From contig CANQHZ010000002.1 of NCBI GenBank assembly GCA_947623805.1, forward strand, positions 1 through 64,000: DNA of 64,000 nt, read 5' to 3'. Origin of the DNA: an uncultured Lachnospiraceae bacterium. Its GTDB lineage: Bacteria > Bacillota > Clostridia > Lachnospirales > Lachnospiraceae. A program made the position numbers and the translations under genes. Below the pieces are notes generated by a model. The model made no database searches, was not told where the DNA came from, and saw only the letters and a list, made by a program, of their open reading frames with translations. This document shows positions 4,350-63,192 of this stretch, one piece after another (the stretch's first letter is position 1; each line of letters starts with the position of its first letter).

Positions 4350-4385
4350 AAAATGATAAAGAAGATTTGAAGGAGAATAAAAAGA

Positions 4386-5480
4386 ATGAGTAAAATAATA
4401 CTAACGGGTGACAGACCTACGGGACGACTTCATATAGGACATTATGTAGGTTCGCTGAGGCGCAGGGTGGAGCTGCAAAACTCCGGCGAATATGATAAAA
4501 CCTATATAATGATAGCGGATGCGCAGGCGCTTACCGACAACATAGATAATCCTGAAAAGGTACGCCAAAATGTCATAGAAGTAGCGCTTGATTATCTTGC
4601 GTGCGGTTTGGACCCCGCCAAGTCTACGCTGTTTATACAATCGCAGATTTCAGAGCTGTGCGAGCTTACATTTTACTATATGGATTTGGTGACTGTGTCG
4701 CGTCTGCAGCGTAATCCCACTGTGAAAAATGAAATACAGCTCAGGAATTTTGAGGCGAGTATACCGGTAGGATTTTTTACATATCCCATAAGTCAGGCGG
4801 CTGATATAACTTTCTGTAAAGCGACGACTGTGCCGGTAGGCGAGGACCAGCTCCCCATGATTGAGCAGACAAAGGAAATAGTACACAAGTTCAACTCAAT
4901 CTATGCGCCCGAAAATCCCGTGCTTGTAGACCCGCAGGCGCTCATACCGGAGGCGGAGGCGTGTAAACGTCTGCCCGGCACTGACGGCAAGGCAAAAATG
5001 AGCAAGTCGCTGGGTAACTGCATATATCTTGCGGACACTGCCGATGAGGTAAAGGCTAAGGTAATGAGTATGTACACGGACCCGCTGCATCTGCAGGTGA
5101 GTGACCCGGGACATATCGAGGGCAACACGGTATTTACATATCTGGATGCTTTTGCAAAGGATGAGCATTTTGAGCGTTATCTGCCCGATTATGCCAATCT
5201 GGACGAGCTAAAGGCTCACTACATGCGAGGCGGCCTTGGCGATGTCAAGGTAAAGAAGTTTTTGAATAATGTACTTCAGGAGGAGCTTGAGCCAATCAGA
5301 AACAGGCGATTGGAGTTTGCAAAGGACATTCCTGAAATTTACAATATACTGAAAAAAGGCTCGGATACGGCGAGAGAAGTAGCGGCCCAGACACTTTCGG
5401 AAGTAAAGCATGCCATGAAAATAGACTATTTTGCCGATACGGAGCTTATAAAGTCCCAGAGTGAGAGATATTCTAAATGA
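4386..5480 (+). CDS. trpS: Tryptophanyl-tRNA synthetase
   Basis: [17 protein letters not shown] (HIGH-class motif) and [14 protein letters not shown] (KMSKS). Confidence 0.96.
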
Positions 5481-45553: not shown

Positions 45554-47260
45554 ATGCGTTTAACTATTCAACCAAAAAGAATAAGCAAAATAAGATTGGG
45601 AGATTTGCTCGTGCAGAGCGGGTCCATCACGGCGGAACAGCTTGAGATAGCGCTTGCCAAGCAGAAACAGCGAAATATGAAGCTGGGTGAGGTCCTTGTA
45701 GATGAGGGCGTTATCACGGAGGATGATATAGCGACAGCTCTCTGCAAGCAGCTTAATCTTGACAGGATAGACCTGCAGAACATCAACATAGACAGGTCGG
45801 TAACAGCGCTTATTCCTGTCGGGCTGCTCAAAAAATATATAATGATGCCGTTCGCGTTTAGCGAGGAGAACAAAAACACGCTCAGGGTTGCGATGGAAAA
45901 TCCGCTCGACACATACGCGCAGGAGGATATTTCCATAGTTACGGGGTATCAGGTAGAGCCTTTCGTGGCCACTACGCGAAGCATCATGCTTGCGATAGAC
46001 AGGTATTACGGGCAGGACGAAACAAGGACCGCTCTCGACCGCTACGCCAAGGAGAAAAAACTTGACGTGGAAAAAGACGAACACGAGGAAGAAGACGTAA
46101 ACAGTTCGCCGATAGTAAAGCTTGTCAAAGAGATGATAGACCTTGCCGTGCGCCAGAGAGCGTCGGATATACATATAGAGCCTATGGAAGAATATATCCG
46201 AGTGCGTTATCGTATAGACGGCGTACTTCAAAACAAGGCTAAGTACAACGTATCGGTTCTTCCGTCCATCATTGCACGTATCAAGATAATCGGCGGCATG
46301 GATATTTCCGAAAAGAGAAAACCTCAAGATGGACGTATTACGCAGGTAGTAGACCATGTGGAGTACGATATTCGTGTATCAATACTTCCGACTGTATTCG
46401 GTGAGAAAGTGGTTATGCGACTTACCGCTAAGATGGCGCTCACGAGGGAAAAAAGTCAGCTTGGACTAAAGCCTTATGAGCTTGAGCAGTTTGATTACAT
46501 TATCAAAAATCCGCACGGCATACTGCTCGTTACGGGGCCTACGGGAAGTGGTAAATCTACTACACTTTATACGGCGCTCAGTGAGCTGAATACGAGCGAT
46601 GTAAATATCATTACGGTAGAGGACCCTGTCGAGGCGAATATAGACGGTATCAATCAGGTGCAGGTCAATCCCAAGGCGGAGCTTACGTTTGCAAGCGCGT
46701 TGCGTTCGATATTGCGACAAGACCCGGATATAATCATGATAGGTGAGATACGAGATACAGAGACGGCAGCGATAGCCGTGCAGGCGTCTATCACGGGCCA
46801 TTTGGTGGTAAGTACCCTGCATACCAATTCCGCGGCAAGTTCTATCACACGACTGGAGGATATGGGCATAGAGTCATATCTGATAGCAGACTCAGTCATA
46901 GGCGTTATCGCGCAGCGACTGGTGCGCCGCCTCTGTCCTGTGTGCAAAAAGCCGCGTCTTGCGACAGACGAGGAAAAGGAATTTATGCAGCAGGATATAA
47001 GCAAGGACATTACGATATACGAGCCGTGCGGCTGCCCTAAGTGCGACGGCACGGGCTACAAGGGGCGTATCGGTGTATACGAGATTATGAAGATGACGCC
47101 CTCGCTCAAGAGAATTATCAGTAAGCGTGAGGGCGCTGACGTATTGAAAGAGCAGGCTATGAAAGAGGGCATGAGGACGCTTAGGATGAGCGGTTCAGAG
47201 TATGTGCTTGACGGCACTACTTCTATGGCGGAAGTTGTAAGGATTTCATTTGACATATAA
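45554..47260 (+). CDS. pilB: Type IV pilus assembly ATPase PilB/GspE
   Basis: LLVTGPTGSGKSTTLYTALSELN, AIAVQASITGHLVVSTLHTNSAASSITRLEDMG; zinc-binding CPVC...CGCPKCDGTGYKGR. Confidence 0.95.
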   Translation: MRLTIQPKRISKIRLGDLLVQSGSITAEQLEIALAKQKQRNMKLGEVLVDEGVITEDDIATALCKQLNLDRIDLQNINIDRSVTALIPVGLLKKYIMMPFAFSEENKNTLRVAMENPLDTYAQEDISIVTGYQVEPFVATTRSIMLAIDRYYGQDETRTALDRYAKEKKLDVEKDEHEEEDVNSSPIVKLVKEMIDLAVRQRASDIHIEPMEEYIRVRYRIDGVLQNKAKYNVSVLPSIIARIKIIGGMDISEKRKPQDGRITQVVDHVEYDIRVSILPTVFGEKVVMRLTAKMALTREKSQLGLKPYELEQFDYIIKNPHGILLVTGPTGSGKSTTLYTALSELNTSDVNIITVEDPVEANIDGINQVQVNPKAELTFASALRSILRQDPDIIMIGEIRDTETAAIAVQASITGHLVVSTLHTNSAASSITRLEDMGIESYLIADSVIGVIAQRLVRRLCPVCKKPRLATDEEKEFMQQDISKDITIYEPCGCPKCDGTGYKGRIGVYEIMKMTPSLKRIISKREGADVLKEQAMKEGMRTLRMSGSEYVLDGTTSMAEVVRISFDI

Positions 47261-49517: not shown

Positions 49518-51398
49518 CTATTGCTTGTGCGGCTGCCATACCTTCTCTCTGTATGTGCTGTTGCCAAATAAAATATCATAATCTACGATTTTATAATTCT
49601 GTACTGCCTCTGTTTGGATATCATTATATATCTTGAGAGGATTTCCGTTGTTATCTTCTACCAGATATCTTGTGTTTGTTTTTAATATTTCTTTTTCATA
49701 TTTCAAAATCTGTGTCATATCGGATTCCGGCAAGCTTGCATATTCAAGGATAATCTGAGGCAGATAGTTAATGTTTTCACCTGTAAATTCTACTTTTTTG
49801 TTATTAAAATTGCTCCACATTATTACAGGAACAGAATATTGGCGTTTTGTTGTATCATAATCATTGTCATCCAGTCCAAGCGCTCTCAAAGAATTATATG
49901 TCATGAAAGGAAAATGGTCCCCATACATTATAATGACTACAGGTTCATCAATATTTTCAAAATAATCTACAAGCTGTGCAAATGCTTTTCCTGCGAGGTA
50001 AATACCGTTGATACAGTTTACCAGTTCATTATAATCGCTTTCTGATACATAATCTTTATCCATTGTTATATCAATCGGATATGGATAATTATTATTTGGT
50101 TTGATTTTATATTCCATTGCCATTGTATGGTTCGCTACAGAAACAGCAAAGATGAATTTGCGACTGCATGTTTCGTCCTCATATTCCTTAATTATTTGTT
50201 TTGAGAGACTCTCATCCGATATGAATACGGAATATATATCTGTATAATCCATGCTATCCTCAAAAATAATCTTGTCAAATCCAAGTTTAGGATATATCTT
50301 ATCTCTATCGTACATATTCCCATAATAAGGATGGATAAATGTAGTTTGGTAATCAAGTGCATGAAAATAATCAACAAGCGACGGCATTTTACGTTGGCGA
50401 AATTTTATATGTATTCCTGTATCCGACATGAAATACTTTGTATTTAGTCCGGTCAGGCATTCCAATTCAGAACTTACAGTACCTCCTCCGTAAATATTAG
50501 TGGAAAGATATCCTGTTGAACAGTCAGGTGCCAGTCTTTTATATGCTTCCATAGGATCTAATGAAAAAGCAATATGTCCGCCTTTTATATTGTCAGTATT
50601 CCACCAGGATTCATTCATAATTATAATAATATTAGGATTCTCATGTGAAATATTTGTCTGAATGTTATCTGATAAAAAATACTCATAACCTGCTTTGGGA
50701 TTTTCATTGTACGAGCCGTTATATTTATCGTCTTTTAAAAATTCATAAAGCAAATATTGCACATGTCCTGTATCAGATATTCCACTTCCGTCTATTATTT
50801 GTGACTTTCCCACCGTTTTTATATATGACAAAATGTATATTAACATTATAATGAAAAGGACTGTTGCCATACCTAAACGTTTCATTAGTTCTTGGATTTT
50901 ATTATTGTGTTCTTTATACGAAATTTTTTTATGAATAAAGCATAAAATAATTCCTGATATAATAAAGAAAAGAAAACCGCACGCAGTCGCAGTCTGCTTA
51001 CTGCTTAAATTAAAATCAAGACTGTGAAATGCCAGTCCCGCCGCTTCTGTAATCCTCAAATCATCAAGTCTAAAAAGTTCATGGCGTAAAGCATATTTAA
51101 TAGAACTTGCATAACTTAATATTAACGATAACATTGATACGACACTGATGCTTAAGCCTGCTTTTCCGGTTATGAACCCAATAATAAATGTTGTAACTGT
51201 TATCACGATACTCTCAAATATATAAATATTATCATTAATGTTCAAAGCCTGGAAATAAAAAAATGAATGTTTTGGCTGAATTAAAAAATAATCCATTAGG
51301 TATGGCGTGCATATTGTAAAAATTAGCAGTAGAATAGATAAAAATAAATAATATATAATTTTTCGGAAATTAACTCTTTTTTTTGCTATGTTATACAT
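49518..51398 (-). CDS. LTA synthase-like sulfatase/phosphoglycerol transferase family membrane protein
   Basis: 5 N-terminal TM helices; NIIIIMNESWWNTD, STNIYGGGTVSSELECLTGLNTKYF, VVIIMYGDHFPF. Confidence 0.88.
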   Translation of the reverse strand: MYNIAKKRVNFRKIIYYLFLSILLLIFTICTPYLMDYFLIQPKHSFFYFQALNINDNIYIFESIVITVTTFIIGFITGKAGLSISVVSMLSLILSYASSIKYALRHELFRLDDLRITEAAGLAFHSLDFNLSSKQTATACGFLFFIISGIILCFIHKKISYKEHNNKIQELMKRLGMATVLFIIMLIYILSYIKTVGKSQIIDGSGISDTGHVQYLLYEFLKDDKYNGSYNENPKAGYEYFLSDNIQTNISHENPNIIIIMNESWWNTDNIKGGHIAFSLDPMEAYKRLAPDCSTGYLSTNIYGGGTVSSELECLTGLNTKYFMSDTGIHIKFRQRKMPSLVDYFHALDYQTTFIHPYYGNMYDRDKIYPKLGFDKIIFEDSMDYTDIYSVFISDESLSKQIIKEYEDETCSRKFIFAVSVANHTMAMEYKIKPNNNYPYPIDITMDKDYVSESDYNELVNCINGIYLAGKAFAQLVDYFENIDEPVVIIMYGDHFPFMTYNSLRALGLDDNDYDTTKRQYSVPVIMWSNFNNKKVEFTGENINYLPQIILEYASLPESDMTQILKYEKEILKTNTRYLVEDNNGNPLKIYNDIQTEAVQNYKIVDYDILFGNSTYREKVWQPHKQ

Positions 51399-51416
51399 AA
51401 TGTTCCTTCATTACAA

Positions 51417-51445
51417 ACCGCCAAGGGAAAATATCCCTTGGCGGT
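51417..51445 (-). terminator. Terminator-like hairpin after pilin cassette 1
   Basis: accgccaagggaaaatatcccttggcggt. Confidence 0.7.
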
Positions 51446-51472
51446 ATTGTGACAAGTATTGCTATTCAATTA

Positions 51473-51928
51473 TTAGCGACCTAAATCTTCTTTTAATTTT
51501 CCACCGCCAGAACCGTTAGTAACTGTCATTTTGCCATCGGAACCAAAATTGATTGATGAGCCAGCATACGCAGCACTCTTTAATTTCATAGTGGAATAAC
51601 TAATTCCTGCATCATCTAAAGCTGTTTTAATAGAGCCAGAAGGAGAACCAATTATAGGATCGCCAGCCTTAGCAGCAATGGTGATAGCTCCTTGTACAAT
51701 AGTATGGTCGGGATCTGATGAATATATTTCGATTGCGGAAATAATGGCATCGATATTATCAAGATCTGCCGATTTTCTTGATTTATCAACGTACTTCAAA
51801 TACTGCGGTGCCAACACACCAATCAATACAGCCATAATTGCGATAACAATGATTAACTCTACAAGGGAGAAACCTTTGTTATCAAGTTTCTTTTCTTTTA
51901 GTTCATTTAATTTGTTCATTGGATTCAC
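51473..51928 (-). CDS. Type IV pilin, cassette P1
   Basis: KKLDNKG^FSLVELIIVIAIMAVLIGVLAPQYLKYVDKSR; divergent C-terminus. Confidence 0.93.
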   Translation of the reverse strand: MNPMNKLNELKEKKLDNKGFSLVELIIVIAIMAVLIGVLAPQYLKYVDKSRKSADLDNIDAIISAIEIYSSDPDHTIVQGAITIAAKAGDPIIGSPSGSIKTALDDAGISYSTMKLKSAAYAGSSINFGSDGKMTVTNGSGGGKLKEDLGR

Positions 51929-52240
51929 ATATCCTTTCCATTGTTAATTTTTTTGACTAAGTAATTACCGCATCCAAAGATACAGCACACCCTTAATCAT
52001 AATATTGGTTGACAGTTACACTAAAACCTTATCCACCCTGCCTCATGAACAGCACCCTCCAGCCATGCTGCATATACATACATCACTTCCCATCCTCCGG
52101 CAAATGCCCTCATGACTGTACTCAGCGGACAACTCATATGTACCAGCCGCGCCGCATATTTCGTAAAATATGCCATATAAGACAACAAACCATCCCGCCG
52201 CAGCCGCTTATTTTTTATACATATATTATACTTAAGGGGC
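51929..52240 (-). repeat. Conserved pilin leader repeat L1
   Basis: About 310 bp near-identical to 55123-55436 (inverted) and 60842-61159. Confidence 0.9.
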
Positions 52241-52453
52241 AATTAAATCGTTTTGAACCAAATAAGCACCATTTATATTAGGCGCAATTATTATATCAGC
52301 TAACCGTCAGTACAATGTTGCTAAAGCAATCACTCGACCGTATAATATAAATAAAAACAAAAAGCGTCAAAATTATAAGTCAAAAAGTCAAAGGGCATCT
52401 GAAAAGATGTCCTGCTTGATTTTATAAGACAATTATTAAGGAGGTCATTTTAT

Positions 52454-53485
52454 ATGGCATTATTTCCATGCCCCGAATGTGGGAAATCTATTTCTGACAA
52501 GGCTATTTTGTGTCCGTCATGCGGTTATCCGGTGCGCTTGACAGAAACACCTATGGCTGACAGGTTGTTTCCCGGTTTTGCAGAGTTGTGCTTTACTTTG
52601 CAGTCAAACCGCCGTTGTACAGCATCTGCCAAATATATGAATATTACTTTTGCCGAGTTGTATGAGCAATACTTTGAAAGCAAGTATACAAATTCCAAAA
52701 GAAAACTGTCAGCCTCGGCAGGGTATTCCGCTCATGCAGCATTTAAAAACTGTCAAAAACTTCACGAAATGAGATTTGCAGATTTAAGAAAAAATGATTT
52801 GCAGGAAATCATTGACACATGTCCTTTGAAACATTCAAGCCTCGAACTGATTGTTTCTCTTTTCAGAGGAATGTACGCCTATGCCATTCAAAATGATATT
52901 GTAGAAAAAGATTACTCGCGGTTCGTCCGCATAAACATTCCCGACGATGACGAAAACGGCGTGCCTTTTTCATCAAGAGCGCTGGAAATTCTTTGGAAAA
53001 ATCGCGACAAAGAAATTGTCAAAATTATTCTTTTGATGATATATACAGGTTTTCGCATTTCTGCCTATCGGACAATACAATATAATGAAACGGAACAATA
53101 TTTTAAAGGAGGCGTGAAAACTGCCGTAAGCAAAAACAGAATTGTCCCGCTACATCCCGCAGTACAAGCTTTTGCAAAAGACTTCGCCGCAAAATATTTA
53201 TCGGGAAATGAAATTTTTGCAGTAAATAAATTCCGTAAAAACTTTTATAAAACGCTTAACTCTCTCGGATTAGCGACATCAAATTTAGGCACAAAGCACA
53301 CGCCGCATGACTGCCGGCACACATTTTCGTGGCTTTGCGACAAATATGGAGTAGACGACCTTTCCAAACGAATGTTGATGGGACATTCCCTTGGAAAAGA
53401 CATCGAAAAGTCGGTATACGGTCATAGAACTTTCGATGAATTGAAAACGGAAATCAACAAAATCAAATCGCCTGATTTGGTATAA
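52454..53485 (+). CDS. Tyrosine recombinase/integrase with N-terminal zinc ribbon
   Basis: FPCPECGKSISDKAILCPSCGYPV zinc ribbon; catalytic pattern R (YTGFRISAYR), HDCRH, LMGHS, SVYGH. Confidence 0.85.
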   Translation: MALFPCPECGKSISDKAILCPSCGYPVRLTETPMADRLFPGFAELCFTLQSNRRCTASAKYMNITFAELYEQYFESKYTNSKRKLSASAGYSAHAAFKNCQKLHEMRFADLRKNDLQEIIDTCPLKHSSLELIVSLFRGMYAYAIQNDIVEKDYSRFVRINIPDDDENGVPFSSRALEILWKNRDKEIVKIILLMIYTGFRISAYRTIQYNETEQYFKGGVKTAVSKNRIVPLHPAVQAFAKDFAAKYLSGNEIFAVNKFRKNFYKTLNSLGLATSNLGTKHTPHDCRHTFSWLCDKYGVDDLSKRMLMGHSLGKDIEKSVYGHRTFDELKTEINKIKSPDLV

Positions 53486-53649
53486 GTTGCAATTTTGTAT
53501 AATCATTTCGCAAAAAAGAATGTATGTTCTAATTTTACGTTGACTTCAGAACAATAGTTTGGTAAAATACATAAGAACATAAGTTCACTGCATTAAATTA
53601 TGGCAGAAAGGCACAAGTTATGTTACTATATAATAAAAGGAGTTTGTGA

Positions 53650-54663
53650 ATGGGCGCAAAAGATATTACTGAGAAAATATTGGCTGATTATAATGACGTG
53701 TTTGCTGACATTATAAATGGTGTATTGTTTGACGGTGAACAAATCGTATCCGAAAATGCGCTGGAAAACGTCAAGGATAAAAGCCAGTACAAATTTAACA
53801 GCAAAATCCATGAACAAGAACGCGACGTATCCAAAAGCTGGATTCCATCTGGGGTTTGTTTCGCGCTCTACGGTTTTGAACATGAAACAGAGGCAGAACC
53901 ATATATGCCAATGCGAATTATTGGATATGACGGCGCGTCATATCGAGGGCAGTTGCTAAGCCACAATAAGGGCAAGATAAAATATCCGGTTGTTACCATT
54001 GTACTGTATTTCGGCACAAAACACTGGAATCAGCCGCGTAGCCTGCATGAATGTCTGACAATTCCTGAAAGGTTGAAACCATATGTAAATGACTATAAAA
54101 TTAATCTCGTGGAAGTCGCTTTTTTAGACGATAAGCTTGATAATTTCCATAGTGATTTCCGCATTATTGCCGAATATTTTGTCAACAAGCGCAAAGGCTC
54201 GGACTATATTCCGAACGCACAAACGATTAAACACATAGATGAATTTTTGAAATTGCTGCAGGCATTGACTGGCGATAAGAGATATTATGAAGTTTTGGAA
54301 TCATTGCAGGAAACAGAAAAGCGGGAGGGGATTAAAATGTGTGAGATTTTGGATAAAATTGAAAATAGGGGGATTGCTATTGGGGAAGAACGCGGGGAAA
54401 AGCGCGGCATTGTTATCGGTGAAAAGCGTGGTATTGCTATTGGGGAAAAGCGCGGCATTGCCATAGGTAAAGAACATGGAATCGCTATCGGGGAAAAACG
54501 CGGAATTGCTATTGGGGAAAAACATGGTCGCAACGAAATCAATAGACTCGTCGCTATTTTGTTGGAGGAGAATCGGATAGACGACTTAAAGCGGGCAGTG
54601 CATGATACAGAATATCAGCAGCAACTCATGATTGAGTATGGAATTTGCAAAGATTATGAGTAA
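53650..54663 (+). CDS. Rpn-family (PD-(D/E)XK, recombination-promoting nuclease/putative transposase) protein with tandem GIAIGEKR repeats
   Basis: 337 aa, Rpn-like core YPVVTIVLYFGTKHWNQPRSL...; C-terminal octapeptide repeats. Confidence 0.75.
   Translation: MGAKDITEKILADYNDVFADIINGVLFDGEQIVSENALENVKDKSQYKFNSKIHEQERDVSKSWIPSGVCFALYGFEHETEAEPYMPMRIIGYDGASYRGQLLSHNKGKIKYPVVTIVLYFGTKHWNQPRSLHECLTIPERLKPYVNDYKINLVEVAFLDDKLDNFHSDFRIIAEYFVNKRKGSDYIPNAQTIKHIDEFLKLLQALTGDKRYYEVLESLQETEKREGIKMCEILDKIENRGIAIGEERGEKRGIVIGEKRGIAIGEKRGIAIGKEHGIAIGEKRGIAIGEKHGRNEINRLVAILLEENRIDDLKRAVHDTEYQQQLMIEYGICKDYE
54369..54530 (+). repeat. 24-bp coding tandem repeat (GIAIGEKR)
   Basis: Repeated ggaattgctattggggaaaaacgc-type units. 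Confidence 0.85.
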
Positions 54664-54691
54664 TCTATCACTAACTGTATTTTAAGATTTT

Positions 54692-54988
54692 TGTTAATCA
54701 TTGCAGGAAACAGAAAAGCGGGAGGGGATTAAAATGTGTGAGATTTTGGATAAAATTGAAAATAGGGGGATTGCTATCGGGGAAAAACGTGGGGAAAAAC
54801 GTGGCATTGTCATCGGTGAAAAACGCGGAATTGCTATTGGTGAAGAACGTGGTCGCAACGAAGCCAACAGCCTCGTCGCTATTTTGTTGGAGGAGAATCG
54901 GATAGATGACTTAAAGCGAGCAGTGCATGACGAGGAATATCAACAGCAGCTTATGATTGAGTATGGAATTTGTGAAGATTGCGAATAA
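54692..54988 (+). pseudogene. Duplicated C-terminal fragment of the Rpn-like gene
   Basis: atcattgcaggaaacagaaaagcgggaggggattaaaatgtg... repeats the 3' part of 53650-54663 with fewer octapeptide units. Confidence 0.8.
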
Positions 54989-55122
54989 TTTGATATAAAA
55001 AATTATCACGCAGTAGCCAGTTTGAATGAATGTGTTGACATGCTGAACAAGCTTTATTGGATATATTGATAAAAATATTTAGAAAATATTTAGAAATTTT
55101 AGTAAAAGTATTGCATTTTAAC

Positions 55123-55436
55123 CGCCCCTTAAGTATAATATATGTATAAAAAATAAGCGGCTGCGGCGGGAGGATTTGTTGTCTTATGTGGCATATTTTA
55201 CGAAATATGCAGCGCGGCTGGTACATATGAGTTGTCCGCTGAGTACAGTCATGAGGGCATTCGCCGGAGGATGGGAAGTGATGTATGTATATGCAGCATG
55301 GCTGAAGGGTGCTGTTCATGAGGCAGGGTGGATAAGATTTTAGTGTAACTGTCAACCAAATATTATGATTAAGGGTATGCTGTATCTTTGGATGCGGCAA
55401 TTACTTAGTCAAAAAAATTAACAATGGAAAGGACAT
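55123..55436 (+). repeat. Conserved pilin leader repeat L2
   Basis: Inverted copy of L1; ends at the P2 pilin start. Confidence 0.9.
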
Positions 55437-55907
55437 GTGAATCCAATGAACAAATTAAATGAACTAAAAGAAAAGAAACTTGATAACAAAGGTTTCTCCC
55501 TTGTGGAGTTGATTATTGTTATCGCTATTATGGCTGTATTGATTGGTGTGTTGGCACCGCAGTATTTGAAGTATGTTGAGAAGTCAAGAGTAGCCAGTGA
55601 TAGGGATAATATAACAGCAATTAAAGATGCTATACAAGTATATGGTGCTGACCCTGATGCAGATGCTTCTAAGCCATTGGCAAATGGAGACACTGTAGTT
55701 CTTACACGAGACGGTACTGGTGCTAGTATTTCTGGTGATGGTGTAAAAGAGGCATTAAAAGCTGCTGGTTTACCTGACGACGCAACTAAATTACCCAAAC
55801 TTCAAAATCAACAGAAGAAAAAGAAAGTAATAATAACAGTTACTATTAATTCTACTACAAAAAATGTGTCAGTTACAGATGATTTTGACACACCTGACAC
55901 TCCCTAA
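55437..55907 (+). CDS. Type IV pilin, cassette P2
   Basis: Same first ~47 residues as P1; unrelated, Lys/Thr/Asp-rich C-terminus. Confidence 0.92.
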   Translation: MNPMNKLNELKEKKLDNKGFSLVELIIVIAIMAVLIGVLAPQYLKYVEKSRVASDRDNITAIKDAIQVYGADPDADASKPLANGDTVVLTRDGTGASISGDGVKEALKAAGLPDDATKLPKLQNQQKKKKVIITVTINSTTKNVSVTDDFDTPDTP

Positions 55908-56035
55908 CATATAGGATTTGCTTTATTATTGATTAGTTTTGTTTATCAATACTCATATTTACTAGTAAATACTATCTTGCTAAGCAATGTTAAAAGCTGA
56001 AAAGTAGATTATAAAAATTTTGGTAGCTCTACAAG

Positions 56036-56070
56036 ACCGTCAAGGAACTCTTTCCCTTGGCGGTTTTTCA
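56036..56070 (+). terminator. Terminator after pilin cassette P2
   Basis: gaccgtcaagg-aactcttt-cccttggcggttttt. Confidence 0.75.
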
Positions 56071-56169
56071 ATTATGTCACTACTACATAATATATTCCCC
56101 ACTCTCTGATACTCTACTTTCTTCTAACTATATTATTGTGCTTAAGCATTTGCAAAACTCTATTAGACA

Positions 56170-56264
56170 ACATAGAATTTAGGCAAAATATATAAAATAA
56201 GCGGCGTCTCGCGGAGCGCCTAGCCGCGTTTTTATATATTTTGACTAAATTCGGACAGTTTAGA
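56170..56264. repeat. Dispersed palindromic repeat family R, copy 4 (reverse orientation)
   Basis: catagaatttaggcaaaatatataaaataagcgg...ccgcgtttttatatattttgactaaattcggac matches the reverse complement of copy 1. Confidence 0.8.
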
Positions 56265-56445
56265 ACACATTTCACAATCACCTAATATTATTACGTTGCG
56301 TCCGCAACATACAAAAAATATATAATTTCACAAATCAATATAATTACTTACCGAAACAACATATACTTTTCCCCTCAATGTATGCTATACTATTAACAGA
56401 TATGCATCATATACATCATAGCACATTCAGAAAGCGAGGCATTGT

Positions 56446-58143
56446 ATGGCAAAAAAAGTAAAACTTCCCGTAGGAATTGAGGACTTTGAAGAAATGCGCA
56501 CCATGGGATATTATTATGTTGATAAAACCAAAATAATCCTTGACCTTATAGACAATTTAGGGAAAGTAAACCTCTTTACCCGTCCAAGGCGATTTGGGAA
56601 AACCTTAAATATGAGCATGCTCAAATTTTTCTTTGAAATCGGCAACGACGGCTCACTCTTTGACGGACTGGAAATTTCCAATGAAAAAGAACTCTGCAGC
56701 GAATATATGGGGAAATTTCCGGTTATTTCAATCAGCCTGAAAAATGTAGAAGGCGCTTCCTTTGATAAGGCGAAAAACAGGCTTCGAACCGTTATAGGAA
56801 CGGAGGCAATCAGATTTTCATTCCTTTCAGACTGTAATAACCTGACAGAAACCGAACGCCAACAATATGCTAAGCTGATTGAATTGAATGACAGCGGCGA
56901 ATTTGCGATGTCGGATGATATGCTGGAAAACAGTCTGTTTCTTCTGTCCGTTTTTTTGCAAAAACATTACGGACTAAAAACAATCCTGCTGATTGATGAA
57001 TACGATGTCCCACTTGATAAGGCATACCAGTCAGGATACTATGATGTCATGGTTCAACTGCTTAGGTCGCTGTTTGGACAGGTGCTCAAGACAAACAGCA
57101 GCTTATATTTTGCGGTGCTTATAGGCTGCCTTAGAATTTCAAAGGAAAGCATCTTTACCGGACTTAACAATTTTAAAATATATACGGTAAAGGATGTTCA
57201 GTACAATGAATATTTCGGTTTTACGAATGACGAAGTCAGGAAAATGCTTGCATACTACGGATTTATGGAAAAATATGAGGTCATGAAAGAATGGTATGAC
57301 GGCTATTGTTTTGGCAGTTTGGAGGTTTACTGTCCATGGGATGTGGTAAACTATTGCCATGCATTGAAGATGAATCCGGCGGAAATCCCGCAGAACTACT
57401 GGGTAAATACAAGCAGTAATGATATTATCAGAAATCTAATAAACAAATCTGATGCGTCAACAAAAGATGAGATTGAATCGCTGGTAAACGGTGGAAGCAT
57501 AAAAAAGGAAATTCATCAGGAACTGACCTACAGAGATTTGGATTCTGATATTGACAACCTTTGGAGCCTGCTCTTTACTACTGGATATCTGACGCAGAAT
57601 GGGAATGACGAAGATGGCGTGTCAAAGCTTGTCATTCCAAACAAGGAAATTCTCTGGATATATGTCCGGCAAATCCGCGGATGGTTTCAAGACGAAACCA
57701 AAAAAGACCCTAATAAATTAAACGATTTTCGCAGGGCATTCGAGGCAAATGACACGGTCGCAATAGAGAAAATTTTTACATCATATCTGCGAAAAACCAT
57801 CAGCATACGAGACACAAATGTCAGGCAGGAAATGAAAGAGAATTTTTATCACGGAGTATTGTTGGGGTTATTTGCAGGTATGGAGGGCTGGAATGTCAAG
57901 TCAAACGCAGAAGCCGGCGACGGCTACAGTGATATCAGCATAGAGATTGCAGATAAGGAAATCGGTATAATAATCGAATTAAAATACGCCGAGAATGCGA
58001 CGCTGGAGAACGGCTGCAAAGAAGCATTGAGACAAATTCATGACAAAAGATATGAGGAGATACTGGCTGACAATGGAATGAACATCATATACAAGTACGG
58101 CATCGCCTGCTACAAAAAACGCTGCAAGGTAATATCGGAATAA
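56446..58143 (+). CDS. AAA-ATPase-like / PD-(D/E)XK nuclease-family protein, copy 1
   Basis: LPVGIEDFEEMRTMGYYYVDKTKIILDLI, FTRPRRFGKTLNMSML (Walker A-like), AILLIDEYDVPLDKAYQ-type Walker B, C-terminal YSDISIEI...IIIELKYAE. Confidence 0.93.
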   Translation: MAKKVKLPVGIEDFEEMRTMGYYYVDKTKIILDLIDNLGKVNLFTRPRRFGKTLNMSMLKFFFEIGNDGSLFDGLEISNEKELCSEYMGKFPVISISLKNVEGASFDKAKNRLRTVIGTEAIRFSFLSDCNNLTETERQQYAKLIELNDSGEFAMSDDMLENSLFLLSVFLQKHYGLKTILLIDEYDVPLDKAYQSGYYDVMVQLLRSLFGQVLKTNSSLYFAVLIGCLRISKESIFTGLNNFKIYTVKDVQYNEYFGFTNDEVRKMLAYYGFMEKYEVMKEWYDGYCFGSLEVYCPWDVVNYCHALKMNPAEIPQNYWVNTSSNDIIRNLINKSDASTKDEIESLVNGGSIKKEIHQELTYRDLDSDIDNLWSLLFTTGYLTQNGNDEDGVSKLVIPNKEILWIYVRQIRGWFQDETKKDPNKLNDFRRAFEANDTVAIEKIFTSYLRKTISIRDTNVRQEMKENFYHGVLLGLFAGMEGWNVKSNAEAGDGYSDISIEIADKEIGIIIELKYAENATLENGCKEALRQIHDKRYEEILADNGMNIIYKYGIACYKKRCKVISE

Positions 58144-58407
58144 TTTTATTTCCAAAAAGAGACTGGCGCAGCAAGGATTATACGTACAAGATACAGTATA
58201 ACATTAAGCCAAATTATACTATGTTTTGTTCTTGTATTCCTTGGTGTGACAGCCCTTTTTTGATACGCTCAGTATGAGCGCAATCTAAGCATAGATACCT
58301 ACACGCCTTAATGATGTTAATTGATTTTTAAATGATAAGACCATTTATACCATCTGCATTGCCTGACTTTCTAATTTCCTGACTATAACCTTTGAAGATA
58401 AATAAAT

Positions 58408-60105
58408 TCACCCTGATATTACCATGCAACGTTTCTTGTAGCAGGCAATGCCATATTGGCGTATGACTTTCATTCCGTCGTCAATCAATGTCTCCTCATA
58501 ATTTCTGTCTTTAATTTGTTTCAGCGCCTCATTGCATCCGCTTTCCAATGCTGCATTCTCAGCATATTTTAATTCAATGATAATACCGATTTCCTTATCC
58601 TCAATCTCCACGCTGATATCACTGTAGCCATCGCCGGATTCGGCGTTTGATTTAACTTTCCAGCCATTCATACTCGTAAATAATCCCAGCAGGATTCCGT
58701 GATAAAAATTCTCTTTCATTTCTTTCCTGACATTGGTATCGCGTATACTGATGGTTTTTCTAAGATAGGATGTAAAAATTTTTTCTATTGCAGCCGTATC
58801 GTTTTCCTCGAATGCCGTGCGGAAATCATCTAATTTATGCAGGTCTTTCTTAGCTTCATCTTGAAACCATTTGCGTATCTGTCGGACATATATCCAGTAA
58901 ATTTCACGGTTTGGAATGATTAGCTTTGATATGCCATCTTCATCATTCCCATCCTGCGTCAGATATCCGGTCGTAAACAGGATACTCCACAAGTTATCAA
59001 TTTCCGAATCCAAATCTCGGTAGGTCAATTCCTGATGAATTTCTTTTTTTATGTTACCGCCGTTCACCAGCAATTCAATCTCATCCCTTGTAGACGCATC
59101 GGCTTTGCTTATAAAGTTTCTTATGATATCGTTGCTACTCGTGTTTGCCCAGTAGTTTTGCGGGGTCTCCTCCGGATTCATTTTTAGTGCATGACAGTAA
59201 TTCACCACATCCCATGGGCAGTAAACTTCCAAATTACCAAAACGGTAGCCGTCATACCACTCTTTCATGACTTCGTATTTTCCCATCAATCCATAGTATA
59301 TAAGCATTTCTCTGACTTCTGCATCCGTAAACCCGAAATATTCATTATATTGCACATCTTTTATGGTATATACTTTAAAGTTATTGAGACCGGTAAAGAT
59401 ACTTTCCTTTGAAATTCTTAGACAACCCGTAAGCACGGCGAAATACAGGCTGCTGTTTGTCTTGAGTACCTGCCCAAACAGGGCTCTGATGAAATCTACC
59501 ATGGTGTCATAGTACCCTGACTGGTATGCCTTATCAAGCGGGACATCATATTCGTCAATCAGCAAAATTGCCTTTTGTCCATAATGTTTTTGAAGACAGC
59601 TTGAAAGCAGCAGAAGACTTCCCTTTAAAAGTTCGTCTGCCATTGTAAATATTCCATCATCGTCAACATGAATCAGTGCCTTGTATTGTTTGCGCTCTGT
59701 TTCTGAAAGACGTTTACTCTCCGCAAGGAAAGAAAATCTTAACGCTTCTTTACCTATAATACTGCGCAATTGCTGTTTTGCTTCATCGAAAGTATCACTG
59801 GAGGCGTTTTTCAAACTGATTGAAATAACCGGAAATTTTCCCATATATTCGCTGCAGAGTTCTTTTTCATTGGAAATTTCCAGTCCGTCAAAGAGTGAGC
59901 CATCATTGCCGATTTCAAAGAAAAATTTGAGCATACTCATATTTAAGGTTTTCCCGAATCGCCTTGGACGTGTGAAAAGGTTCACTTTCCCCAGATTATC
60001 TATAAGGTCACGGATTATTCCGGTTTTGTCAACGTAATAATATCCCATGGTACGCATTTCTTCAAAGTCTTCAATTCCTATGGGAAGCTTTACTTTTTTT
60101 GCCAT
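58408..60105 (-). CDS. AAA-ATPase-like / PD-(D/E)XK nuclease-family protein, copy 2
   Basis: Inverted paralog of 56446-58143; first ~95 aa almost identical. Confidence 0.93.
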   Translation of the reverse strand: MAKKVKLPIGIEDFEEMRTMGYYYVDKTGIIRDLIDNLGKVNLFTRPRRFGKTLNMSMLKFFFEIGNDGSLFDGLEISNEKELCSEYMGKFPVISISLKNASSDTFDEAKQQLRSIIGKEALRFSFLAESKRLSETERKQYKALIHVDDDGIFTMADELLKGSLLLLSSCLQKHYGQKAILLIDEYDVPLDKAYQSGYYDTMVDFIRALFGQVLKTNSSLYFAVLTGCLRISKESIFTGLNNFKVYTIKDVQYNEYFGFTDAEVREMLIYYGLMGKYEVMKEWYDGYRFGNLEVYCPWDVVNYCHALKMNPEETPQNYWANTSSNDIIRNFISKADASTRDEIELLVNGGNIKKEIHQELTYRDLDSEIDNLWSILFTTGYLTQDGNDEDGISKLIIPNREIYWIYVRQIRKWFQDEAKKDLHKLDDFRTAFEENDTAAIEKIFTSYLRKTISIRDTNVRKEMKENFYHGILLGLFTSMNGWKVKSNAESGDGYSDISVEIEDKEIGIIIELKYAENAALESGCNEALKQIKDRNYEETLIDDGMKVIRQYGIACYKKRCMVISG

Positions 60106-60292
60106 ACAATGCCTCTCTTTCCGAAAAATATCACGATGCATATGCTGTATATTTGCTAATAGTATAACACACATTGTTTTGGAAAGTATACCTTATTTGA
60201 AATAATTGCGCCTCTGGTTTTGCCTAATACATAAAAAGGGCAGCTCGTTCATAACCTCTTTTTCTTTATTTGCCCCTTATAACGATATTAAC

Positions 60293-60334
60293 CACAAAAC
60301 CGCCAAAGGCAAATTTTCCTTTGGCGGTTTTGTG
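60293..60334 (-). terminator. Terminator after pilin cassette P3
   Basis: cacaaaaccgccaaaggcaaattttcctttggcggttttgtg. Confidence 0.8.
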
Positions 60335-60361
60335 ATTCGTCTTATTATTTAAATTAACAGA

Positions 60362-60841
60362 TTAGCGCCCTAAAGCGGCTGCTAATGTAGTATTATTTGT
60401 AATTGCTAAAGTCCACTGACCGGCATTAGTACCAGTAGCAGAAGTTCTGGTCCAAGTGAGTGTATACGTACCAAATTCTTGACTTTTCATTGTTGGATTA
60501 TTGTTTATACCAGCATATTTCAAAGCTTTATCAGCAACATTAGCATCGGGAGTAACAGCAGTATTGGTTCCACCAGCTGTAATTGTTGCCGTAGTGTTGG
60601 TACCTATATCCGTTTGCGTGTCAGGATCAGACAAATATATCTCAACTGCACTAACCATTGACTCAATGCTATCAAGGTCAGCAGACCTCCTTGACTTCTC
60701 TACATATCTAAGATATGTAGGTGCCAATACACCAATCAATACAGCCATAATAGCGATAACAATAATCAACTCCACAAGGGAGAAACCTTTGTTATCAAGT
60801 TTCTTTTCTTTCAGTTCATTTAATTTGTTCATTGGATTCAC
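60362..60841 (-). CDS. Type IV pilin, cassette P3
   Basis: Shared N-terminus MNPMNKLNELKEKKLDNKGFSLVELIIVIAIMAVLIGVLAP; divergent Thr-rich C-terminus. Confidence 0.93.
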   Translation of the reverse strand: MNPMNKLNELKEKKLDNKGFSLVELIIVIAIMAVLIGVLAPTYLRYVEKSRRSADLDSIESMVSAVEIYLSDPDTQTDIGTNTTATITAGGTNTAVTPDANVADKALKYAGINNNPTMKSQEFGTYTLTWTRTSATGTNAGQWTLAITNNTTLAAALGR

Positions 60842-61159
60842 ATATCCTTTCCATTGTTAATTTTTCTGACTAAGCAATTGCCGCATCCAAAAGATACAGC
60901 CTCCTCTTAATCATAATATTGGTTGACAGTTACACTAAAACCTTATCCACCCTGCCTCATGAACGGCACCCTCCAGCCATGCTGCATATACATACATCAC
61001 TTCCCATCCTCCGGCAATGCCCTCATGACTGTACTCAGCGGACAACTCATATGTACCAGCCGCGCCGCATATTTCGTAAAATATGCCACATAAGACAACA
61101 AACCCTCCCGCCGCAGCCGTTTATTTTTTATAAATATATTATACTTAAGGGGCGGTTAA
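60842..61159 (-). repeat. Conserved pilin leader repeat L3
   Basis: Near-identical to L1/L2; 1-nt deletion in the gcaatgcc segment relative to L1 gcaaatgcc. Confidence 0.9.
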
Positions 61160-61275
61160 TTGAGAAAAGGCGTATACGAACATGAAAAATTCTGAGAGCT
61201 AAAGTTTCTTTAGGAGTTTTTATTTTTGGGCAAAAGTGCTATAATTATACATATTTAGACATAGAAAGGTGCGGT

Positions 61276-63192
61276 TTGAAAATGCGCGCTAAGAAGCAGA
61301 AATTTAATCCCCAAATAAAGTCAGACGCCAATGTGCGCTATCCTGTCTACTTTGTAATACTTTCTCTGGGAATATTACTACTGTTCATGATTTTTATGCC
61401 TTATCTGGCGGACTATTATCTGCTCCAGCCTGATATTAACATATTTGAATACTATAATCAGCATGCACTCGATCAATATTATGATTTTGAGGCATTGCTG
61501 ATAAATTTATTTATGTTTGCCGTTTTATGCTTTACCAGGCATACCGGTGTGGCTATGTTTGCCGCGGCGTTGCCTGTAATGATATTGGCATATGTAAGCA
61601 GCATAAAATATGCCGCGCGGAATGAACTTTTTAGGTTTGATGATTTAAAGCTCACGGAAGCGGCGGAAATGGCGGTTCATTATCTTGATTTTAAATTTAC
61701 CGCAAAGCAGCTGTCAGCCATTGCTATGGTATTGTCTTTTTGCATTGCGGGAGGAATACTTGACAGACTTAGAAAGCGCTATCCCGTGGAATGTCTGCGT
61801 AAAATATGGCAAAAGCCGATAACAGCTAGGTTAAGGGTGCTTGCGGGCGTGGCATGTCTGGGTGTCATGGTTTGTTATGCATATCAATACATAGAATCAA
61901 AAAACACTATCTTGGAAATAGATTCCGGAGATGTCTTTGGCGTGGGAAATGACAGGTATGTGCTTTACAATTTCCTTAAAAATGATAAATATGCCTCCAT
62001 TACTGCCGACAATGTGAGCGATTCTTACCGTTATATTGCCGACAATATTCAAACCTCGTCCGGACAGGCAAATGACAGCCAACGTCCCGATGTCATCGTG
62101 ATTATGAATGAGTCGTGGTGGAACACGGATAACGTCAGGGCTGCTGACATATTTTCATCAGACCCTATGCGGATATACAAGGAATTGTCGCAAAAATGCT
62201 CGACGGGATATCTCTCGACAAATATATTTGGCGGCGGGACAATCAGCTCTGAGGCGGAATTCCTCACGGGGATAAATACAAAGCACCTGACTTCGGACAT
62301 TGGGATATATTCTGAGCTGGCAGAGCGGAAAGTGCCATCGATTGTGGATTACTTCCATGCGTTGGATTATAAGGCTACATTCATCCATCCGTATTATGGG
62401 GAATATTATGACAGGGATAAAATCTATTCCATAATGGATTTTGACAAAGTCATTTTTGATGACGATATGGACTATACGGACATTTATACAAAATATATAT
62501 CTGATGAAAGCCTGGTAAAACAGATTATTAAAGAATATGAGGAAAGTGGTGATTCGCCGAGCTTTATATTCGCCGTTTCCATAGCTAATCATATACGAAG
62601 GCTTGGATATAAGACGAAAAGTGTGAATGATTACGATTATCCGATTTCAGTGACGATTGACAAAAGCTCTTTTCGCCCCGAATACTATGATGATTTTGTC
62701 AACTATATTAACGGCATTTATCTGGCAAATGAAGCCTTTTCGCAGATTGTGTCCTATTTTGAAAAACAGGATAGGCCTGTAGTCATTGTGATGTATGGCG
62801 ACCACTGTCCCTCTTTTTCAAGTGAGATTATGGATGCTATGGGGATAAGCGGTACAGATTATGAGGCCCTGAAACGCCAGTATTCTGTGCCGGTAATCAT
62901 GTGGAGCAATTTTAATGATGAAAAGGTGGAATTTACAGGCGAAAATATCAACTATCTGCCGCAGATGCTCCTTGAATACGCCGGGCTGCCCGAGACGGAG
63001 ATGACGCGGATTTTGAATTGTGAGCGCAGTGTTTTTAAGGCCGACACAAGACGCTTTATCCAGGACGGCGATGGCGGTCTGATAGAAAATTATAGTGATA
63101 AACAGAATGAGGCGGCGCGCCACTTTAAAGTTTTGGATTATGACATTTTATATGGTAACAGCGCATACAGGGAAAAAGTGTGGCTGCCTTGA
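61276..63192 (+). CDS. LTA synthase-like sulfatase/phosphoglycerol transferase family membrane protein, paralog of 49518-51398
   Basis: DVIVIMNESWWNTDNV, STNIFGGGTISSEAEFLTGINTKHL, VVIVMYGDHCPS. Confidence 0.9.
   Translation: MKMRAKKQKFNPQIKSDANVRYPVYFVILSLGILLLFMIFMPYLADYYLLQPDINIFEYYNQHALDQYYDFEALLINLFMFAVLCFTRHTGVAMFAAALPVMILAYVSSIKYAARNELFRFDDLKLTEAAEMAVHYLDFKFTAKQLSAIAMVLSFCIAGGILDRLRKRYPVECLRKIWQKPITARLRVLAGVACLGVMVCYAYQYIESKNTILEIDSGDVFGVGNDRYVLYNFLKNDKYASITADNVSDSYRYIADNIQTSSGQANDSQRPDVIVIMNESWWNTDNVRAADIFSSDPMRIYKELSQKCSTGYLSTNIFGGGTISSEAEFLTGINTKHLTSDIGIYSELAERKVPSIVDYFHALDYKATFIHPYYGEYYDRDKIYSIMDFDKVIFDDDMDYTDIYTKYISDESLVKQIIKEYEESGDSPSFIFAVSIANHIRRLGYKTKSVNDYDYPISVTIDKSSFRPEYYDDFVNYINGIYLANEAFSQIVSYFEKQDRPVVIVMYGDHCPSFSSEIMDAMGISGTDYEALKRQYSVPVIMWSNFNDEKVEFTGENINYLPQMLLEYAGLPETEMTRILNCERSVFKADTRRFIQDGDGGLIENYSDKQNEAARHFKVLDYDILYGNSAYREKVWLP

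Follow-up and report, generated by a model that had tools for sequence, protein, structure and literature searches.

A candidate recombinase-operated pilin switch at promoter-spacer sites in a type IV pilus locus of an uncultured Lachnospiraceae bacterium

The window analysed here, bases 1-64000 of the 79-kb contig C2 from the 229-contig draft genome of a Lachnospiraceae bacterium (G000), carries a type IV pilus locus in which three prepilin genes (P1, P2 and P3) lie together with a gene for a tyrosine recombinase (TyrRec). We propose, with a probability of about 0.58, that this locus serves to switch between several type IV pilin cassettes, with TyrRec inverting DNA at a promoter-spacer site (RS) and thereby choosing the expressed pilin. 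TyrRec probably flipped DNA at RS during evolution, and the cell may be able to change the pilus that it displays. In the literature searched, we found no case of a tyrosine recombinase that switches type IV major pilins through promoter spacers.

The pilin region is surrounded by a type IV pilus gene set, with pilB and pilC to its left and pilD, pilM, pilN and minor-pilin-like genes to its right. P1 (51473..51928, minus strand), P2 (55437..55907, plus strand) and P3 (60362..60841, minus strand) all encode prepilins (Pfam N_methyl). Pairwise identity is 95.5-96.8% in the 5' untranslated part of their near-identical ~320-bp leaders and 94-98% over the first ~41-47 codons, after which it drops to ~45-52%. 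The common tract starts abruptly at TTAA..GCCCCTTAAGTATAATATATG (P1 52247, P2 55117, P3 61160), and the inverted pairs I3-I6 and I8 (97-285 bp, 88-97% identity) are far above chance. The longest exact leader-to-leader match is 83 bp and, therefore, short reads can tell the leaders apart. An earlier reading of this DNA from its letters alone (the sequence-only reading) had described three pilin cassettes with a near-identical leader and N-terminal codons followed by sharp divergence, and these values bear it out. The same applies to its two inverted pairs: P1 and P2 flank TyrRec (52454..53485, plus strand) and an Rpn/YhgA-like gene (Transposase_31, Pfam PF04754; 53650..54663, plus strand), while P2 and P3 flank two AAA/nuclease genes (56446-60174) that form an inverted duplication of 81-84% identity. 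It had also given each cassette a similar terminator; CCGCCAAGG-type hairpins do follow the cassettes, but their sequence and distance vary.

Each leader opens with YTTAA-N7-TTAAG, a 17-bp sequence that coincides precisely with the spacer of the pilin promoter, from the -35 position to the -10 box. Aligned on the -10 box, every copy consists of the -35 position, YTTAA-N7-TTAAG and TATAAT with minor deviations (P3 begins with ATTAA, an arm of G019 P1 reads CTAAG, and G032 pilin a and G034 have TTATG), and the 17-mer, at 52231-52247 (P1), 55117-55133 (P2) and 61144-61160 (P3) in the window, is half-palindromic. In the window, the P1 site (52225..52253, minus strand) has AAACGA at the -35 position followed by TTTAA-TTGCCCC-TTAAG, the P2 site (55117..55139, plus strand) reads TTTAA-CCGCCCC-TTAAG, and the P3 site (61138..61166, minus strand) has TTCTCA followed by ATTAA-CCGCCCC-TTAAG, each with TATAAT as the -10 box. 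The pattern for RS and -10 box, YTTAANNNNNNNTTADGTATAATRT, gave eight exact matches in five of the 38 genus genomes, all of them at pilin leader starts; the reversed-pattern control gave one match in total. A looser RS pattern, searched in 396 family genomes, recovered this locus and two isolated one-mismatch places only, one of which was unrelated on inspection. Weak leader-start matches in G045 and G311 sit among unrelated genes and were set aside as chance, and no match to a 24-base piece of RS was found in IMG/VR.

The 7-bp core of RS is GCGCCCG at both G032 sites (pilins a and b), CCGCCCC at all three G019 sites and at P2 and P3 of G000, CCGTCCA in G034 and CCCCATA in G022. The core is thus uniform per genome (except for G000 P1) and varies between lineages, as would be expected of a strand-exchange region. 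In G022, an identical 1541-bp pilin stretch with RS and a direct-repeat motif occurs on two contigs (L094 and L123). TyrRec was not seen at these two stretches, which end at or near an assembly gap, and for this reason the duplication was not used as evidence of rearrangement.

TyrRec lies among pilin genes in four genomes, i.e. G000, G019, G032 and G034. The other genus members with a pilin locus that was read (L091-L100) have a single pilA of this N-terminal type without an adjoining recombinase, and pilA directly precedes pilD and pilM in 8 of the 10. In G000 and G019, TyrRec is on the plus strand and its 5' end points away from pilD; in G032 and G034, it is on the minus strand and its 5' end points to pilD. 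Positions 1-1553 of G034 contig C222 align to 3850-5402 of G032 contig C64 (TyrRec plus the 5' flank, up to and including the site), and positions 1530-2275 align to G032 3666-2939 on the opposite strand (pilin a with its leader, located on the 3' side of TyrRec). In shuffle tests, G034 to the left of RS matches the G032 TyrRec-5' flank (z 46); to the right of RS, its sequence agrees better with the pilin a leader (z 110) than with the pilin b leader (z 38). The junction switch between G034 and G032 lies within RS, and the G032 leaders beside it share only patches. We read this junction as evidence for exchange at the site, not as a complete reconstruction.

On the TyrRec-3' side, the flank AGTAAAAnTATTGCATTTTAA is common to G000 P2, G019 P2 and G032 pilin a. 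In the window, this conserved flank (55084..55116, plus strand) contains an outward -35 element, TTGCAT, at 55111-55116 with A+T-rich sequence upstream; in G000, G019 and G032 the side reads AGTAAAA(G/A)TATTGCATTTTAA, giving TTGCAT-17-TATAAT, and the homology between the G000 and G032 flanks has z 5.7 in a shuffle test. The TyrRec-5' side has AAACGA, AGGCGA, CCGTTT or CCATCT at the -35 position, and no conserved outward -35 element. P3 has a possible -35 element (TTCTCA) at this position and P1 has none; with the position aligned on the -10 box, a -35-like hexamer is absent at both P1 and G032 pilin b. From the arrangement of these motifs, the 3' side would be the active promoter half, and for the assembled orientation our guesses are that P2 is on and P1 off, with P3 uncertain.

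In the proposed mechanism, the RS at each cassette start would double as the 17-bp spacer of the pilin promoter, and TyrRec, encoded between P1 and P2, would act as the catalyst that recombines inverted RS copies. A crossover in the 7-bp core would leave the -10 box, the long RNA leader and the pilin gene joined and exchange the upstream -35 element. Inversion between P1 and P2 (2.9 kb, with TyrRec and the Rpn gene) would take the outward-facing promoter half, conserved on the TyrRec-3' side, away from P2 and give it to P1, and with inversion between P2 and P3 (6 kb) these two cassettes would trade places as complete units. The -35 half would decide expression, the cell would thereby select the pilin transcribed from the TyrRec-3' half-promoter, and inversion may continue within a clone. 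In a second and slower layer, homologous exchange via the common leader and N-terminus, together with island transfer between species, would alter the variable halves of the pilins. The sequence-only reading had inversion between P2 and P3 attach a different C-terminus to each leader. This does not hold for a crossover at the leader start, which moves each leader together with its entire pilin gene and alters nothing but the -35 element upstream; for the C-termini to be swapped, the crossover would have to fall inside the coding repeat.

Several observations weigh against such a switch. No alternative orientation was seen within a species, each species being represented by one draft assembly (a metagenome-assembled genome where the record named it). 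G000 and G019 are colinear with the same cassette order and orientation, so that no switch is seen between these two. Because pilin a lies across TyrRec from pilD in G032, a single inversion is insufficient for the G034 arrangement; at least one further rearrangement or leader replacement is needed besides one RS inversion, and the G032/G034 junction could stem from leader replacement rather than inversion. The G000 P1 core, TTGCCCC, is unlike that of P2 and P3 at two of seven positions and, therefore, P1xP2 inversion should be hindered in this strain. With respect to the promoters, the -35 element of P2 matches the consensus at 3/6 positions and that of P3 (TTCTCA) at 4/6, a promoter match inside the segment faces P1 (52370-52342), and regional promoter matches are barely more numerous than in shuffles (63 vs 54). 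It is the weak P2 -35 element, the P3 match and the internal match facing P1 that reduce the expression states to guesses. Finally, none of the inverted repeats around non-pilin relatives of TyrRec is clearly above shuffles and, thus, those enzymes are not obviously invertases.

An unlikely explanation, but one to be taken seriously, is that RecA-dependent homologous recombination between the ~450-bp repeats, by conversion, occasional inversion and horizontal exchange, accounts for everything, with TyrRec a stranded prophage integrase without a role. Between G000 and G019, synonymous divergence (dS) is 0.60-0.98 for comEC, pilB, pilD, pilM and pilN and 0.31 for pilC, and 0.08-0.14 for the Rpn gene, both AAA genes, P3 and the adjoining sulf2 gene; identity climbs inside TyrRec near 52.75 kb and falls after 63.2 kb. 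This low-dS stretch between higher-dS genes indicates that an island of ~10.4 kb was exchanged between the two lineages, as RecA-dependent exchange could do. G019 P2 and P3 are orthologous to P2 and P3 of the window, with 94% amino acid identity for P3. Inside the island, where dS is ~0.1, the first 47 codons of P2 have dS 0.03 and the remainder has dS 0.73 and nonsynonymous divergence (dN) 0.24. An exchange near codon 47, by whatever route, replaced the P2 variable half, which also bears on a coding crossover of the Moraxella type. This half has its own history, as expected from replacement via homology in the common part. The P1 slot of G019 holds a different pilin (35% amino acid identity from codon 48 on, leader 74% identical), and the sulf1 gene downstream of P1 is missing there. 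The G000 P1 leader is 96.8% identical to the P2 leader vs 74% for the G019 P1 leader; since the sequence ahead of the P1 leader can be recognised as the same in both genomes, this near-identity is most likely the result of homogenisation with P2/P3 in G000, but not in G019. RecA-dependent exchange would also suit the TyrRec family members elsewhere, which resemble element or phage integrases. By contrast, it does not readily account for a G032/G034 switch that falls inside a short site between leaders with such patchy similarity, for an RS core that is alike within a genome and different between genomes, or for a TyrRec that is intact beside the site where it is seen among pilins and, judging from dN/dS (0.14, G000 vs G019), is under purifying selection. 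In total, recombination at the leaders, as the sequence-only reading had suggested, gains from the in-site switch and the opposite TyrRec orientations as well as from the homogenised P1 leader and the separate history of the P2 variable half.

It is improbable that the three pilins are static paralogues, co-expressed or condition-dependent via the long RNA leader, with the repeats reflecting recent duplications. The identical order in G000 and G019 agrees with this, as does the leader (~295 nt; 51929-52230, minus strand; 55134-55436, plus strand, with the P2 5' untranslated region at 55142..55436; 60842-61143, minus strand), which is common to all cassettes and a candidate for a new structured leader RNA. 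It folds better than shuffles (z -2.28); in an alignment of nine leaders from four genomes (A4), 95% of the cells of 44 pairs stay paired, and covariation is 0.306 vs 0.05-0.11 for slid structures. What argues against static paralogues is that the segment is reversed and the junction switched in G032/G034, and that P1 and G032 pilin b lack a -35-like hexamer. A riboswitch or other known RNA was rejected as an identity for the leader: the window has no Rfam match at E<=1 except for chance microRNA matches on a palindromic terminator, and nothing above the Rfam gathering threshold was found in L081/L082. A coded peptide was likewise rejected, as a 1-nt deletion in P3 disrupts the reading frame that is open in P1, and no match to the leader was found on phages or plasmids. 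Somewhat less probable still is C-terminal switching of the Moraxella kind, in which one expressed leader acquires different C-termini by a crossover within the N-terminal coding repeat: the common N-terminus and divergent C-terminus would fit, as would the N-terminal inverted repeat of G032 pilins a and c (200 bp, 98%), of which c is without an RS leader of its own, but each of the three window cassettes has its own RS, -10 box and leader, and the sole placeable junction between species is at RS.

TyrRec comprises an N-terminal zinc ribbon, a SAM-like domain and a catalytic domain (Phage_integrase, PF00589), and its catalytic residues R201, H285-x-x-R288, H311 and Y322, which identify it as a tyrosine recombinase, are invariant in 11 relatives in a multiple alignment. 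Its likely promoter, TTGCTA-N17-TATAAT (52318..52346, plus strand), has an equivalent in the same place in G032 (TTGTCA-N17-TATAAT). TyrRec has 343 residues in G000 and G019 vs 416 in relatives; most of a ~73-residue block is missing, as called from the multiple alignment and the length difference, although a tblastn match to G000/G019 extends some way into the region of the block. No Pfam model covers this block. In the G032 protein it is modelled as beta-beta-beta-alpha (AlphaFold2, mean predicted local distance difference test score 77); the model of the entire protein most resembles full-length lambda integrase (1z1b), with a further match to Tn1549 Int. Because of the predicted order and the match to full-length lambda integrase, we regard the block as a putative arm-binding domain, which would bind the direct repeats TTAGYRACAnnTTAGYRACA. 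These repeats lie at the 3' end or flank of the gene in 23 of 26 relatives having the block and are absent in both block-less genomes, G000 and G019, whose enzymes thus lack the features of an arm-binding integrase. Several relatives have repressor-like or ImmA-like neighbours (judged by eye) and, therefore, the pilin-locus TyrRec is probably a captured integrase of the lambda-type phage kind. More tentatively, and with somewhat more doubt than belief, we suggest that this integrase shed its arm-binding domain and arm sites and is now a dedicated invertase for pilin choice, with RS the spacer of a sigma-70-type promoter, crossovers re-pairing -35 halves and at least three major pilins taking turns. 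Relatives of TyrRec in other species (L083, L085, L087, L088 and L090) adjoin large genes, encoding fn3 or Y_Y_Y domain proteins and a pullulanase-like protein, with acetate kinase on the other side in L085 and L088. Elsewhere, G034 has three TyrRec-related C-terminal fragments of 90-103 amino acids (L124, L125 and L126).

A surface-lipoprotein switch in Mycoplasma was reportedly described by Flitman-Tene in 2003 (cited in PMC11868660). In the Vpma, Vsa and Vsp switches of Mycoplasma (Xer1, HvsR), inversion adds a promoter (PMC2268961). The pilin locus is similar in that a tyrosine recombinase gene lies beside a family of surface-protein genes, with sites in the 5' untranslated region at which inversion would reassign the promoter (PMC2268961); as in a Vpma/Vsa-type locus, every window cassette has an RS and TyrRec lies between P1 and P2. 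It differs in that type IV pilin genes of Firmicutes are involved, that TyrRec has a zinc ribbon and relatives with an integrase-type extra N-terminal block, and that RS is the spacer between -35 and -10, so that a crossover would split the promoter while the cassettes keep their own -10 box and long structured leader. The mechanism would resemble the promoter addition of Mycoplasma; the promoter-spacer site and the integrase origin would set the pilin locus apart.

Pilin phase variation through inversion of pilin genes is said to have been reported for Moraxella bovis and M. lacunata by Marrs in 1988 (Piv, tfpQ/tfpI; cited in PMC11868660). Piv is an IS110-type recombinase, and its site is in the coding sequence and swaps C-termini. 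The pilin locus would resemble this system in the proposed inversion of pilin genes, but its recombinase is a tyrosine recombinase rather than an IS110/DEDD enzyme, and its site is in the promoter. In the R64/IncI shufflon, the recombinase Rci acts by inversion on parts of a type IV pilus locus (PMC5430464), as TyrRec would here, but the inverted segments are C-terminal ones and give variants of the minor component PilV; the window sites lie upstream of genes, and an exchange would involve promoter halves and entire cassettes of major pilins. Neisseria pilE/pilS gene conversion involves one expressed gene and silent cassettes that lack a promoter or start; unlike those silent cassettes, all three window copies have a start codon, a leader and a -10 box. 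Inverted repeats of invertons usually flank a whole promoter. The pilin locus is like the invertons of gut bacteria in its proposed site-specific inversion, nearby recombinase and surface genes; unlike them, RS splits the promoter and TyrRec is itself encoded in the segment that would invert. The main text of an inverton survey (PMC11892184) contains neither the word pilin nor the word pilus.

Two sulfatase-fold transferases (Pfam PF00884) border the pilins and might decorate pili or envelope glycans. The membrane protein sulf1 (49518..51398, minus strand), downstream of P1, is transferase-like and has no alignment in G019; sulf2 (61276..63192, plus strand) is a phosphoglycerol-transferase-like membrane protein, the closest solved structure to which is the phosphoglycerol transferase GacH (9e-12). 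Between P2 and P3, AAA_A (AAA-ATPase_like and PDDEXK_9; 56446..58143, plus strand) faces its inverted paralogue AAA_B (58408..60174, minus strand; Pfam and repeat comparison). The Rpn-like gene holds 24-nt tandem repeats (GEKRGIAI...) and is followed by an open reading frame duplicating its tail (54701-54988; repeats D3 and D4), together resembling Rpn genes that have small tail proteins. A near-perfect 70-bp palindrome 3' of P3 (60279-60348) is likely a two-way terminator. PilB (45554-47260) has an MshE-type domain for binding cyclic di-GMP (NF053729), suggesting control of extension by cyclic di-GMP, and a prepilin-like protein of 1362 amino acids amid the minor pilins (L013 5643-9731) is possibly a tip adhesin.

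The four related loci seem to show stages on the way from integrase to invertase, with the extra domain and repeats present in G032 and G034 and neither in G000 and G019. If the pilin switch proposed here is true, gut Lachnospiraceae would have a means of varying their pili, with possible consequences for adhesion and for phages that depend on pili.

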